A stretch of 64,000 nt of DNA, from positions 868,001 through 932,000 of the forward strand of contig NZ_CP132294.1 in NCBI RefSeq assembly GCF_030734285.1, read 5' to 3'. The notes under the pieces are model-generated. The model was not told where the DNA came from. It saw only the letters and a program-made list of their open reading frames with translations, and made no database searches. The position numbers and the translations under genes were made by a program. The DNA comes from Natronococcus sp. AD-5 (lineage in GTDB: Archaea; Halobacteriota; Halobacteria; Halobacteriales; Natrialbaceae). Shown here in pieces: positions 51,628-62,959 of the stretch. Each line of letters starts with the position of its first letter. The first letter of the stretch is position 1.

Positions 51628-51861
51628 TCGACGGTCGACCGTGACGATCCGACCGTTTCCGCTTTTTCAACGTCGCTGCTCGAGAAGTGCTAATCGAACC
51701 GTTCGGACTTCGTAATCGATGATACGGATAGTACATATAATAAGGTGTATATCGTACTATTATTATCAAATTCTGAACCTAGAATAGAATCTCATTATCG
51801 GCGAACACTATGGGTAGCCTGAATCGCGCGTCGAGTACCCTCCGCGAAACCAACCCAGATA

Positions 51862-53223
51862 ATGAACGCAGATAACTCGGCTCGTCGTGTGTTTTTGAAA
51901 CGACTCGGAATCGCAACCGCAGCGGCCACCGCCGTCGGCACCGGTACCGCGACGGCGTCTCCGCCGGTCCACGCCAACGCACGTACTCGCGGACGGATCG
52001 ACAAGCTCGGGCAGGCGATCCCCGAAGATGCGCCGCGGTACACGTACGGCCACGTCCGCAAGGACGGGTTGTACGGCGCGGTGAGCAGCTTTCCTCGAGG
52101 TGGAAACGACTACGGCAGCACGCTGTACGACCTCGAGGACCTCGAGAACCCCACCGAGGTTCACCGCCTCGAGACCGCCAACGAGGTCACGCGGTCGAAC
52201 AACATCAAGTTCGACGGCACCCGCGACGGCCTCTACTACCGCACGCAGGAGGCCGACGGCGACGGCGGCCTGACGGGCTTCGAAGTGATCGACTACGGCT
52301 GGGGCGAGGGAACCCCCGAGGAGCCGGAGATCATCGCGCAGGTGGACACCCCGAACACGGGCGTTCACACCCTCGCCGAGCACCCCGAGGAGCCGATCAT
52401 CTACGCGATCGACAAGGCCGCGAGCGAGCCGGGTATCGTCCCGGTCGACGTGAGCGATCCGGCGAACCCCGAACTCGCCGGCCTCTACGGGCCGCCGGGG
52501 TACTGCCACGACTGCGAGGTCGATCCGGTTCGGAACGTGCTCCACTGCGCGTACATCGCCGGCGAGTTCGAGGGGTACGCGATCCTCGACCTCGAGGATC
52601 CACTGGCGCCGACGGAAATCGGTCGCTTCGACTACGACGACCACCCCGACTACACCGAGATCGGTACGCCGGGGTTCGAAGACTGCCACCAGGCCAGCTT
52701 CGACCCCGAGCGCGGGCTCGCGATCGTCGGCGACGAGGTCTGCGCGGCGCCCGCGATTCCGGGCGGTAAACACGTCTTCGACATCGGCTGGGACGAGGGC
52801 TCGCTCGAGGATCCCAAACCGATCGGATTTACGCACGCGCCCGACGCCCGGTTCCAGGAGAACTTCTGCTTCTGGACGACCCACTTCCACGACGTCGTTC
52901 ACGCCGACGGCGAGGTGCTTCTCGTCGACGGCGGCTATCGGCAGGGGACGTGGGTCGCGAACGTCACGGACCCGACGAACCCGGTCCCGACCGAGCGGTA
53001 CGCGACGGACGACCGGCTGGACGAAGCGGAAGATCACTCCCCCGGAACGCCGCCGTACTGCTGGTCGGCGGTGTACAACGAGGCGCGAGATTTCGTCTTC
53101 GCCAGCGACACCCTCACCGGCGCGTACACGTTCGACGTCTCCGCGCTTCCGGCCCGCGGCGAGGACGGCGGCGGCCCGGACGGCCACTACGACCTCGAGG
53201 CGATCCTCGAGCGCGGCGAGTGA
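51862..53223 (+). CDS. Tat-exported LVIVD-repeat beta-propeller protein
   Basis: A 453-residue secreted protein. The Tat signal is RRVFLKRLGIATAAATAVGT (about 8-27). The body is a series of roughly 45-residue propeller blades with the LVIVD-like pattern (IVPVDVSDPANPELAGLYGP, AILDLEDPLAPTEIGRF, TWVANVTDPTNPVPTERYA). Conserved His and Cys residues (CHDCEVDP, FEDCHQASF, FWTTHFHDVVHADG) could bind metal. The surface propeller may bind ligands or have an enzymatic role, with no activity assigned. The region before the gene is very AT-rich (51720-51790). Confidence 0.88.
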   Translation: MNADNSARRVFLKRLGIATAAATAVGTGTATASPPVHANARTRGRIDKLGQAIPEDAPRYTYGHVRKDGLYGAVSSFPRGGNDYGSTLYDLEDLENPTEVHRLETANEVTRSNNIKFDGTRDGLYYRTQEADGDGGLTGFEVIDYGWGEGTPEEPEIIAQVDTPNTGVHTLAEHPEEPIIYAIDKAASEPGIVPVDVSDPANPELAGLYGPPGYCHDCEVDPVRNVLHCAYIAGEFEGYAILDLEDPLAPTEIGRFDYDDHPDYTEIGTPGFEDCHQASFDPERGLAIVGDEVCAAPAIPGGKHVFDIGWDEGSLEDPKPIGFTHAPDARFQENFCFWTTHFHDVVHADGEVLLVDGGYRQGTWVANVTDPTNPVPTERYATDDRLDEAEDHSPGTPPYCWSAVYNEARDFVFASDTLTGAYTFDVSALPARGEDGGGPDGHYDLEAILERGE

Positions 53224-56880: not shown

Positions 56881-57864
56881 TTAGTTCCCCGCCGCGTCCT
56901 CGAGCGCAGCCATATTCTTGTCGACCTGGTCTTGGTTCGCCGGCACGTACCTCACCTCATCGGCGATCCAGTCGGCCGAGGAGTTCTCGATGTAGAATTC
57001 CACGAAATCGTAGACCGCGTCTCGTTCGAGGGCTTCCGCGGCGGGGTAGACAAACAGCGGCCGAGCCATCGGGTAGGTTCCGTCGCTCGCCTCCTGGAGT
57101 CCCGGCTCTCCGCACTCGTCGTCCTCGCTCTCTTTCACTTCGAGCGCCTTCACGCGGTCCTCGTTTTCGGCGTAGTAGGCGTAGCCGAAGTAACCGATCG
57201 CGTAGGGATCGTCCTCGAGTCCTTCGACGATGATGTTGTCGTCCTCCGTCGGTTCGTAGTCGGTGCGGTGGTCCCCGGCCTCGCCGACGACGTTCTCCGT
57301 GAACCAGTCGAACGTCCCCGAGGTCGTGTCGGGACCGTAGAGGACGAACTCCTCGTCCGGCCAGTCGTCGTTGACGTCCGCCCACGTCTCGGCGCCGTCT
57401 TCCTGCCAGATCTGGGCCATCTCATCGAAGGACATACAGTCGACCCAGTCGTTCTCCGGGCTGACCGCCATCGTCAGCGCGTCGCCGGCGACCTCCATCT
57501 CGATCGGCGTGACGTCGTTCTCCGCGCAGTGGCCTTCCTCCTCGGATTTGATCGGCCGAGAGGCGCCGTTGATGTCGGCTTCGCCGGGACAGAAGTGGTT
57601 CTCGAACCCCCCACCGCTCCCCGTGGAGTCGACGGTAACGTTGACGTCCGAGTTCTCGTCCATGAACCGCTGGGCCATCGCGTCCGAGATCGGGAACACC
57701 GTGCTGGAACCCTTGACGACTACCTCTCCGCTACCGTTGCTGCCGTTTTCCGCGTCAGTTTCGGAACAGCCGGCGATCGCAACCGCCCCCGCGGAGCCGG
57801 CTGCACCGAGGAACTTGCGTCGCGAGATACCGCCCACCCATTGTCCGTGATGATTGTCAGCCAT
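56881..57864 (-). CDS. pstS: Phosphate-binding lipoprotein PstS
   Basis: A 327-residue periplasmic-type binding protein. A Tat-lipoprotein signal is present: ISRRKFLGAAGSAGAVAIAG, followed by Cys (about residue 34) as lipidation site. The phosphate-binding motifs are VKGSSTVFPISDAMAQRFMD (about 50-69), TGSGGGFENHFCPGEADING and GPDTTSGTFDWFTENVVGEA. It captures phosphate at the cell surface and delivers it to PstC/PstA. A TATA (ATAAAAGT, plus-strand, 57887-57894) lies about 25-30 bases upstream. ATG 57864 is preferred to the GTG directly before it. Confidence 0.96.
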   Translation of the reverse strand: MADNHHGQWVGGISRRKFLGAAGSAGAVAIAGCSETDAENGSNGSGEVVVKGSSTVFPISDAMAQRFMDENSDVNVTVDSTGSGGGFENHFCPGEADINGASRPIKSEEEGHCAENDVTPIEMEVAGDALTMAVSPENDWVDCMSFDEMAQIWQEDGAETWADVNDDWPDEEFVLYGPDTTSGTFDWFTENVVGEAGDHRTDYEPTEDDNIIVEGLEDDPYAIGYFGYAYYAENEDRVKALEVKESEDDECGEPGLQEASDGTYPMARPLFVYPAAEALERDAVYDFVEFYIENSSADWIADEVRYVPANQDQVDKNMAALEDAAGN

Positions 57865-58470
57865 CACGTGATCGATTCGAGAGGTGATAAAAGTATGATT
57901 CTATGTGGTATATATATCTGAAAAGAGCCGCACATTCCGATATAGGTCAATCTTTGGCCCGTTCCATGAATTCACCTCTCGCATCTAAATATCCCAACTC
58001 GGAGGTTCCGAACCTGAACTACCTCTCGAATACCGCTTCGCGTTGTCCCGAATTCGAGGATCGCTACGGTACGAACGATCGTTTCGGTCGAGCCGCAAGG
58101 GGAGCGTCTTCGTCGGCGCCGAGAGTTTTCGTCGCTCGAGCGAGGATCGAGCCGAGTTCCGGCGATACGGCTCCGATCGGCAGAACGAGTTCGTCGGGCC
58201 GTGCAAACCCTAATCGATCCGCGAGACGGCGGAGGAAGGCGATCTCGACGATCAGTGGAGGGAACGCCCCACACGTCCAAGTTCCGAGTACACTAGATCG
58301 TGGCATAGGACTATATAGTCCTATAAACCGATACGATATCTACATATCAGAATGTCTATAAGATTCCAGTACGTTCGGGTACCGGGACGTATATCGCCGT
58401 CACGTTCGGATATCGATCGGACTCTATAGATTCAGTCAATTTTATGTTCCCGCTGTCGCAACCGGCCGGT
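57865..58470. other. 606-bp intergenic region between pstS and the AbrB-PhoU gene
   Basis: This is the longest apparently non-coding gap in the window. It contains the pstS promoter at its left edge, an alternating ATATATAT patch at 57910-57918 and a perfect 20-bp palindrome at 58305-58324. At its right end is a TATA-like CAATTTTATG (58438-58447) for the downstream gene. A minus-strand frame of 80 residues (58064-58306, MPRSSVLGTW...PELGSILARATKTLG) is possible but has no recognisable family, and I do not call it. Confidence 0.5.
58305..58324. promoter_or_regulatory. Perfect 20-bp palindrome (candidate operator)
   Basis: ATAGGACTATATAGTCCTAT reads the same on both strands over all 20 bases. 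It lies about 440 bp upstream of pstS and 147 bp upstream of the AbrB-PhoU gene. Such a site could bind a homodimeric regulator, for instance one controlling phosphate uptake. The palindrome is directly visible; the function is an inference. Confidence 0.55.
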
Positions 58471-59466
58471 ATGGAGACGCGCAAGGTCCAGGTGACGGGC
58501 GGATCGACGTACACGGTTTCGTTACCGAAGACGTGGGCGACGGAGAACGGGATCAGCAGCGGAACGACCGTCGAAATATACTCCGAGGACGAGTCGTTGT
58601 TCGTCACGCCACAGCGCGATACCGACCACCAGGAGGGGAGGCTCGAGGTCGCCGCGCTCGACGACGAGCAACTGAAACGGGCGATCCTGACGATGTACGT
58701 CAGCGGCTTCGACATCATCCGCCTCGAGGCGAACCGAATCACGACGGAGCAACGACGCGCGATCCGGAGCGCGATCCAGGGACTCATCGGCGTCGAAGTC
58801 GTCGAGGAGAAGGGGAACTCCGTCGTCGTTCAGGATTTACTCGACTCCTCGGAGCTCTCGATCGTCAACGCCGTCACTCGAATGCGGCTGATCGCCCGGT
58901 CGATGCTCGACGACGCCGTCACCGCCCTCGTCGAGGACGACGACGACATCGCCCACGACGTCATCGAGCGCGACGACGACGTCGACCGACTCTTCCTCGT
59001 CGTCTCGCGGATCTTCCGTGCGACCCTGCGCTCTCCGCGCGCCGCCGAGGGACTCGGCGTCTCCCGCGAGGACTGTTTCGACTACCACTCGAGCGCCCGC
59101 CAGCTCGAGCGCGTCGCCGACCACGCGGTCAAGATCAGCAAGCTGGCGCTCAAACTCGAGGAGATCCCCGAGAACGTCGCGGAGGCGCTGTTCGATCTGC
59201 ACACCGACGCCTCGGACATCATCGAGAAGTCGATGGACGCGCTGTTCGCCGAGGACGGCGACGAGGCGAACAGACTCGGACACAGTGCGCTCGAAGCCGT
59301 TCCCGAAATAGACGAACACACCCGGCACATCGACGAGATACTGCGCGACCTCGACTCCGTCCAGGCGCAGTCGCTCGGATTGATTCTGGACTCCCTCTCT
59401 CGAAGCGCCGACTACGGCGGGAATATCGCCGAAACCGCGCTCCAGAAGGCGGCACCGAGGCCGTAG
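58471..59466 (+). CDS. AbrB-PhoU fusion regulator
   Basis: A 331-residue protein. The N-terminal SpoVT/AbrB swapped-hairpin DNA-binding domain is METRKVQVTGGSTYTVSLPK to about residue 50. Two PhoU helical repeats follow (about 115-215 and 225-325), with HSSARQLERVADHAVKISKL as the clear metal-binding motif. This architecture is common in archaea near pst genes and may link phosphate status to transcription. Start ATG 58471 is chosen because a TATA-like TTTTATG sits 27 bases upstream, overlapping an alternative ATG at 58444. It is divergent from pstS. Confidence 0.92.
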   Translation: METRKVQVTGGSTYTVSLPKTWATENGISSGTTVEIYSEDESLFVTPQRDTDHQEGRLEVAALDDEQLKRAILTMYVSGFDIIRLEANRITTEQRRAIRSAIQGLIGVEVVEEKGNSVVVQDLLDSSELSIVNAVTRMRLIARSMLDDAVTALVEDDDDIAHDVIERDDDVDRLFLVVSRIFRATLRSPRAAEGLGVSREDCFDYHSSARQLERVADHAVKISKLALKLEEIPENVAEALFDLHTDASDIIEKSMDALFAEDGDEANRLGHSALEAVPEIDEHTRHIDEILRDLDSVQAQSLGLILDSLSRSADYGGNIAETALQKAAPRP

Positions 59467-61613: not shown

Positions 61614-62959
61614 CTGAGTTCGTCGAGGATCGGTCGGAACTTCAGTTGTACCTCCTCCCACTCCTCGTTCGGATCGCTGTCGGCGACGATGCCGTTGCCC
61701 GCGAACAGCGTCACCGTCTCGTCGGCGGCGAGTCCCGACCGAATCCCGACCGCGAACTCGCCGTCGCCGGCGGCGTCGAACCAGCCGATCGGGGCGGCGT
61801 ACCAGCCGCGGTCGAACGACTCGGTCTCTCGGATCGTCTCGAGAGCCGCGCGCGGCGGCACCCCGCCGACCGCCGGCGTCGGGTGCAGCGCCTCGACGAG
61901 GTCGAGGACGTGATGGTCGCGCTCGAGCGTCGCCGAAATCGGCGTCTGCAGGTGCTGGATCGTCGCCAGCCGACGGATCGTCTGTTCGTCGATCGCGAGT
62001 TCGCGCGCGAGGGGCGCGAGCTGGTCGCGAATCGCCTCGACCACGAGGCCGTGCTCGCGCTGGAACTTCCGGCTGTCGACCATCCGCTCGACGTGCTCGT
62101 CGTCCTCCTCGGGGGTCTCTCCGCGCGGAACGGAGCCCGCGAGCGCCTCGGTCTCAACGCGGTCGCCGCGTTTCGAGACCAGTCGCTCGGGGGGCGCGCC
62201 GAAGAACGTCCCGCCGCCCTCGCGCCCGATCAGGAACCGATAACAGTTCGGATACTGGCGACGCAGCCGCTCGAGCGTCGCGGGGACGTCGACCGCCCCG
62301 TCGAGTTCGACCGAGAGCGCCTGCGCGAGGACGACCTTCGTGAGGTCGTCGTTCGCGATTCGGTCGAGCGCCGTCTCGACTTGGGCCTGCCACGCCGCGG
62401 GCGCGGTCGTGCGACGCGTCGAGCGAACGCCGGGTCCCGATCCGCTCGGACGCATCGCCGGCAGGTCGATCAGCCGTTCGTGCCAGTCCTCGAGGCGGCG
62501 CGCCGCCTCGTCCGCCTGCCGTGCGACCGTCGTGAGCCACGTGCCGTCGTCGCTCCGGGTGACGAGCACCCGCGGAACGACGAACGACGCCGGCTCGAAG
62601 CCGTTCCAGGGCGGATCGGGCTCGTGGCCGTCGTGAAACGAAAAGCCGCCGAACGCGCGCGGACGAGCGACCGCGGGGCCGACGTGATCGAAGCCGTCGA
62701 ACGCCGCGGCGGCCTGCGTTCGGATCTCGTCGAACCGCTCCGGGCCGCTGGCGGCGAACCGGGCGGCGACGCCGCGTCCGACGACCTCGAGCCCGTCGGG
62801 CGTCGCCCACTGGATGCGACACGCGTCGTCGGCCTCGACGATCGCACCGAAGGAAACGTCCTCGAGTTCGCGACACCGGCTCACCAACTCGGTACTCTCT
62901 CCCGCGCTCGCCGGCCGCGAGTCGCCAATCAGTTGTCGCCCGCCCGACGTTCGATCCAT
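61610..62959 (-). CDS. menF: Isochorismate synthase
   Basis: A 449-residue chorismate-binding enzyme that isomerises chorismate to isochorismate as the entry to menaquinone. The catalytic domain (about 200-449) has NDDLTKVVLAQALSVEL with Lys (general base), FLIGREGGGTFFGAPPERLV, TEALAGSVPRGETPEEDDEH (Mg-binding Glu) and LHPTPAVGGVPPRAAL. GWYAAPIGWFDAAGDGEFAV completes the signature. ATG 62959 is preferred over a GTG three codons upstream. Together with menD it forms a two-gene operon about 12 kb from the other men genes. Confidence 0.94.
   Translation of the reverse strand: MDRTSGGRQLIGDSRPASAGESTELVSRCRELEDVSFGAIVEADDACRIQWATPDGLEVVGRGVAARFAASGPERFDEIRTQAAAAFDGFDHVGPAVARPRAFGGFSFHDGHEPDPPWNGFEPASFVVPRVLVTRSDDGTWLTTVARQADEAARRLEDWHERLIDLPAMRPSGSGPGVRSTRRTTAPAAWQAQVETALDRIANDDLTKVVLAQALSVELDGAVDVPATLERLRRQYPNCYRFLIGREGGGTFFGAPPERLVSKRGDRVETEALAGSVPRGETPEEDDEHVERMVDSRKFQREHGLVVEAIRDQLAPLARELAIDEQTIRRLATIQHLQTPISATLERDHHVLDLVEALHPTPAVGGVPPRAALETIRETESFDRGWYAAPIGWFDAAGDGEFAVGIRSGLAADETVTLFAGNGIVADSDPNEEWEEVQLKFRPILDELR

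Follow-up and report, generated by a model that had tools for sequence, protein, structure and literature searches.

Upstream of pst genes, the pho boxes of bacterial PhoB consist of half-sites repeated at intervals of about one helical turn, and members of the AbrB/SpoVT/MazE-type fold often bind their own promoters. For H. salinarum, a Pho-box or P-box has been described in the promoters of pst1 and pst2 (Furtwaengler et al. 2010, cited in PMC6560208); as summarised in the citing paper, the pho-boxes of the two pst promoters are needed for upregulation and are linked to PhoU regulators (PMC6560208).

The window analysed here, a 64-kb stretch of the Natronococcus sp. AD-5 genome, contains a 606-bp gap (57865-58470) with pstS on the minus strand on one side and an AbrB/MazE-PhoU fusion gene on the plus strand on the other. 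The features of this region are as follows:

56881..57864, minus strand: PstS phosphate-binding protein (PF12849, E 1e-27), first gene of the pst operon
57887..57892, minus strand: probable pstS TATA box (TTTTAT on the minus strand), recognised by sequence
57901..57916, minus strand: pst phosphate box TATATATACCACATAG, beside the pstS TATA box, best match of the pst-box profile in the window
58305..58324, no strand: perfect 20-bp palindrome ATAGGACTATATAGTCCTAT, its own reverse complement at all 20 bases
58305..58310, no strand: left arm ATAGGA, which completes the symmetry and is not conserved in relatives
58311..58318, no strand: distal box core CTATATAG, an 8-bp palindrome starting 160 bp upstream of the ATG at 58471
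58319..58324, no strand: right arm TCCTAT, at which place relatives have nnCTAYGTT or similar
58424..58430, plus strand: proximal box CTATAGA, its start 16 bp before that of the AbrB-PhoU TATA box
58440..58446, plus strand: probable AbrB-PhoU TATA box (TTTTATG), recognised by sequence, for a leaderless start
58471..59466, plus strand: protein of 331 aa with AbrB/MazE-type DNA-binding and PhoU domains (Pfam)

By description, the palindrome can be likened to the H. salinarum P-box, which PMC6560208 presents as a PhoU-linked cis element of haloarchaeal pst promoters needed for induction; unlike the P-box as presented there, it lies on the AbrB-PhoU side, 440 bp from pstS. Its half-site spacing upstream of pst resembles that of the bacterial PhoB boxes, but sequence and lineage differ. 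As in AbrB/SpoVT/MazE-type autoregulatory systems, the neighbouring gene encodes an AbrB/MazE-type domain; here, however, the domain is fused to PhoU. The site is presumably an ordinary kind of haloarchaeal control site in an unusually tidy copy.

The palindrome and its flanking genes

The AbrB-PhoU protein matched PF04014 (E 1.5e-11) and PF01895 (E 5.2e-21), and a search by sequence found no solved structure covering its AbrB part. Comparison of relatives indicated that pstS likely starts, without a leader, at 57864 and that the true start of the AbrB-PhoU gene is likely the ATG at 58471, not 58444, the METRKVQVTGGSTYTVSLPK start being conserved. Relatives carry GATTTATA at the place of the AbrB-PhoU TATA box, and both genes look leaderless. 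The gap also holds three small ORFs, of 80, 102 and 152 aa; none had a homologue in related loci, and they were rejected as genes.

Three statements of the original prediction were borne out, namely that 58305-58324 is symmetric over all 20 bases, that it lies between divergent phosphate genes (pstS on the minus and AbrB-PhoU on the plus strand), and that it is clear of both TATA boxes (57887-57892 and 58440-58446). Its remark that such a palindrome is very rare by chance was overstated: an order-1 Markov (dinucleotide) model of the window, which has 67% GC, predicts that 64 kb will contain 0.65 perfect palindromes of 20 bp or longer, and a second one is present in the window at 62491-62510, so that the length of 20 bp is weak evidence. 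This second palindrome, CGAGGCGGCGCGCCGCCTCG, is GC-rich and situated in coding DNA, as the composition predicts. To find an AT-centred 20-bp palindrome in a single gap of 606 bp is far less expected: scaled to the length of the gap, the 0.65 falls to about 0.006. Perfect symmetry alone is a poor guide in GC-rich genomes.

With up to three mismatches, ATAGGACTATATAGTCCTAT gave a single match in the 64-kb window (0 expected). The 20-mer has one copy in the 5.17-Mb Natronococcus genome, and its inner 14 bp likewise occur exactly once; among nine genomes of the genus searched with up to three mismatches, the sole other match was at a different place in G003.

Distal and proximal boxes of AbrB-PhoU loci

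The comparison covered 97 AbrB-PhoU loci from relatives, kept if their upstream sequences were non-identical, which were divided into 1) class A, 40 loci in which a pst gene starts within 300 bp of AbrB-PhoU, 2) class B, 38 loci with pst 300-1200 bp away, including the Natronococcus sp. AD-5 window, and 3) 19 loci in which BLAST detected no pst gene up to 1200 bp away. The core CTATATAG, searched with up to one mismatch from 138 to 172 bp before the AbrB-PhoU start codon, was present in 38 of 40 class A loci, 23 of 38 class B loci and 16 of the 19 loci of the third class, the last being an imperfect class in which at least one member is misassigned (L094, with a PstS-like neighbour missed by BLAST) and many others are related Natrinema, so that independent cases number fewer than 16. 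Shuffled sequences gave means of 0.72, 0.75 and 0.36, respectively, and other 34-nt upstream windows mostly scored 0-1, with a maximum of 4. In all three classes the core was located at about -145 to -165 relative to the AbrB-PhoU ATG (about -157 in the loci without detected pst), and the core at 58311, with its 160 bp to the ATG, falls in the same range; 15 of the 38 class B loci had no core there. The site is thereby conserved in sequence and position beside AbrB-PhoU also at loci in which BLAST detected no pst. Several Natrinema loci have an upstream neighbour that is co-oriented, looks unrelated and ends at about -194 to -245, and the core can therefore hardly serve anything but AbrB-PhoU there.

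Conservation around the core differed among the classes: both flanks are conserved in class A, only part of the right side in class B (TA, 1.6 and 1.1 bits), and virtually nothing left of the core in class B or in the loci without detected pst. About 10 bp from the start of the core a right-hand half-site was found, the window having CTATATAG-TC-CTAT versus CTATATAG-nn-CTAYG in relatives. Both the nearest relative, G004, and the other AbrB-PhoU locus in the same genome carry CTATATAGTCCTAT unchanged. This second AbrB-PhoU locus possesses the core and the right arm, without the left arm. The inner 8 bp are palindromic in many relatives. Over the 97 loci, the outer six pairs are fully symmetric in this genome only and mostly reach 0-2 of 6 elsewhere; the full symmetry expected to persist in relatives for the site of a symmetric dimer was thus not found among them. 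The next best locus, L099, has 5 of 6 outer pairs symmetric (ACAGTAATATATAGTACTAT). Since the outer pairs are symmetric only here and the core is widespread, the symmetry is local and the core old. On the strength of these alignments, the perfect 20-bp symmetry is incidental to the presumed regulatory site. What is well supported in the original prediction is thus the regulatory element itself, whose core and right arm keep nearly the same spacing from AbrB-PhoU in most of almost 100 loci, but not the symmetry on which it was based: the proposed check for conservation in relatives turned out negative for the full palindrome and positive for its centre.

In 91 of the 97 loci (up to one mismatch), the TATA box is closely preceded by a second element of the AbrB-PhoU promoter, the proximal box CTATAGA. 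Measured start to start, this box is about 112-113 bp from the distal core in the window and 99-130 bp, mostly 108-117 bp, from it across the loci. Helical phasing of the two boxes was considered and rejected, as the spacings show no clean 10-bp series.

Class A pst genes start some 45-50 bp left of the core. Shortly before their leaderless start, and in the direction of pst, the sequence runs AACATAG-nn-CTATATAG-n4-CATAG-n5-TATTTAG, in which TATTTAG is the TATA box. These loci use the core as the pst phosphate box (TATATAG-N4-CATAG); it lies about 21 bp ahead of the TATA box, GTATTTAG, which in turn is about 26-30 bp before the pst ATG. Similar layouts were seen in other families of the order. 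The pst genes of class B have their own box, TATATAG-n4-YATAG, adjoining their own TATA box. It was also noticed that the word TCTAAATAYCC, which is like the class A pst TATA box, is located at 57984-57994, about 120 bp from pstS, with a counterpart in G004 (L010 1161-1171); among long-gap class B loci these two alone have it exactly, and it was rejected as a remnant pst TATA word of long gaps in general. In these two loci it is perhaps a relic of a compact promoter or a second pst promoter.

Possible roles of the site

We consider it fairly probable, from the comparison of loci, that a conserved distal operator of AbrB-PhoU, belonging to a haloarchaeal phosphate circuit, is represented in this species by the palindrome. 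The functional part would be the 8-bp palindromic core CTATATAG together with the CTAT half-site a helical turn to its right, and the left arm would be an addition specific to the lineage, completing the symmetry by coincidence. In compact loci the same CTATATAG may serve pst as the phosphate box; in Natronococcus sp. AD-5, with its longer gap and a pstS equipped with a box of its own at 57901-57916, 58305-58324 would have been left as the AbrB-PhoU-side site, paired with the proximal box at 58424-58430 beside the AbrB-PhoU TATA box. A phosphate regulator probably binds the distal site. Such a phosphate-dependent regulator would recognise TATAG/CTATA half-sites, acting on pst via the box beside the pst TATA box and on AbrB-PhoU via the distal and proximal boxes, and expression would follow the phosphate supply. 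AbrB-PhoU is a natural candidate for this role because a DNA-binding-type domain is joined in it to a PhoU domain, and its AbrB-type domain and its adjacency to the site suggest that it possibly binds the distal site itself (autoregulation). An AT-rich element in a GC-rich genome could instead reflect promoter architecture or DNA bending. Archaeal phosphate regulation is poorly mapped, and the comparison yields two testable haloarchaeal motifs, the pst box and the distal/proximal pair of AbrB-PhoU, plus a candidate regulator and a case in which one shared site has seemingly been divided between two genes. Rather unlikely, in our estimate, is an extended scheme in which AbrB-PhoU would bind both the distal CTATATAG and the proximal CTATAGA in its own promoter and form a loop, the distal site of compact loci being also the pst operator and the two roles being split in later lineages; if so, a single site in compact loci would set both the transporter and the regulator.

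The distal-operator reading has to be weighed against the core being the TATA box of an additional transcript, either a longer, leadered AbrB-PhoU mRNA or a small RNA from the gap. CTATATAG is TATA-like and nearly fixed in its distance from AbrB-PhoU, and the phosphate-induced sRNA132 acts on a pst operon in Haloferax (PMC6560208); however, sRNA132 is reported for Haloferax only, at a place not adjoining pst (PMC6560208), in class A a different TATA box, GTATTTAG, accounts for where pst starts, and no conserved ORF was found in the gap. Nothing is conserved left of the core in loci lacking a nearby pst gene, and a BRE-like element for a rightward promoter is therefore absent, such conservation being confined to class A. 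We regard an additional transcript as unlikely, and of the two options offered in the original prediction we prefer the upstream regulatory site; for the core of an unannotated promoter, neither a BRE-like element nor ORF homologues were seen. That class A loci use the core as the pst box, and that the TCTAAATAYCC word has been kept in this gap and in G004, would agree with the core being a leftover of a compact pst promoter, a former pst box with little or no function since the gap grew. Yet diverged class B loci and those without detected pst still have the core and the right arm, while the left side has eroded in them, and the exact word is limited to two class B loci, which makes a leftover quite unlikely.

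Both remaining explanations take the full palindrome as the functional unit. Its complete symmetry, its single copy in the genome and the palindromic inner 8 bp of many relatives would suit a species-specific operator bound by a symmetric dimer, but the outer pairs are at chance level in relatives, the second AbrB-PhoU locus lacks the left arm while having core and right arm, and perfect 20-mers are not rare in this DNA; we therefore find such an operator very improbable. A hairpin in RNA or single-stranded DNA, acting as a terminator or attenuator, is hardly credible: ATAGGACTATATAGTCCTAT folds into an 8-bp stem with a 4-nt loop (-5.6 kcal/mol, z -3.6 as DNA), but any palindrome folds so, and, as both flanking genes appear leaderless, the palindrome is outside their transcripts. 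A hairpin function was rejected because the arms of the stem are not conserved.

The pst box in the window and in related genomes

A pst-box profile was built from the class B pst promoters of other genomes and run on the window. The top match was 57899-57918 with 28.6 bits; the runner-up, 51746-51765 (14.9 bits), is AT-rich, about 100 bp before an ORF starting at 51862, and probably due to chance. The palindrome at 58305-58324 was not among the 15 best matches of the profile in the window and so does not count as a pst box proper; it is also separated by about 440 bp from position 57864, where pstS starts, compared with about 50 bp before a pst start for pst boxes. The palindrome and the pst box have TATATAG alone in common, the N4-CATAG half being absent from the palindrome, which may therefore bind a different protein or act differently.

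In the Natronococcus genome the pattern TATATAKNNNNYWTAG (TATATAK-n4-YWTAG) had three exact matches, before pstS, pstS2 and pstB2. With one mismatch allowed, 35 further matches brought the total to 38 versus 63 for the reversed control, and none of the 27 inspected preceded an evident phosphate gene; since these matches are not above control, the extra sites were rejected and no further regulon members are claimed. Over 31 genomes, 51 exact matches were obtained versus 34 for the reversed control pattern. Among the 29 matches retrieved from relatives, 21 precede PstS- or PstB-like genes, the box mostly starting about 50 bp before the start codon, and three others (L171, L173 and L191) are located 36-52 bp before genes for a phosphonate-binding protein and two metallophosphoesterases, which are, by these upstream boxes, candidates for phosphate regulation. 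At the second AbrB-PhoU locus of the Natronococcus genome (G000:C1:1849605-1851136), pst boxes were found before both pstS2 and pstB2 (L168 2606-2621 and 4122-4137), suggesting two separately controlled transcripts.
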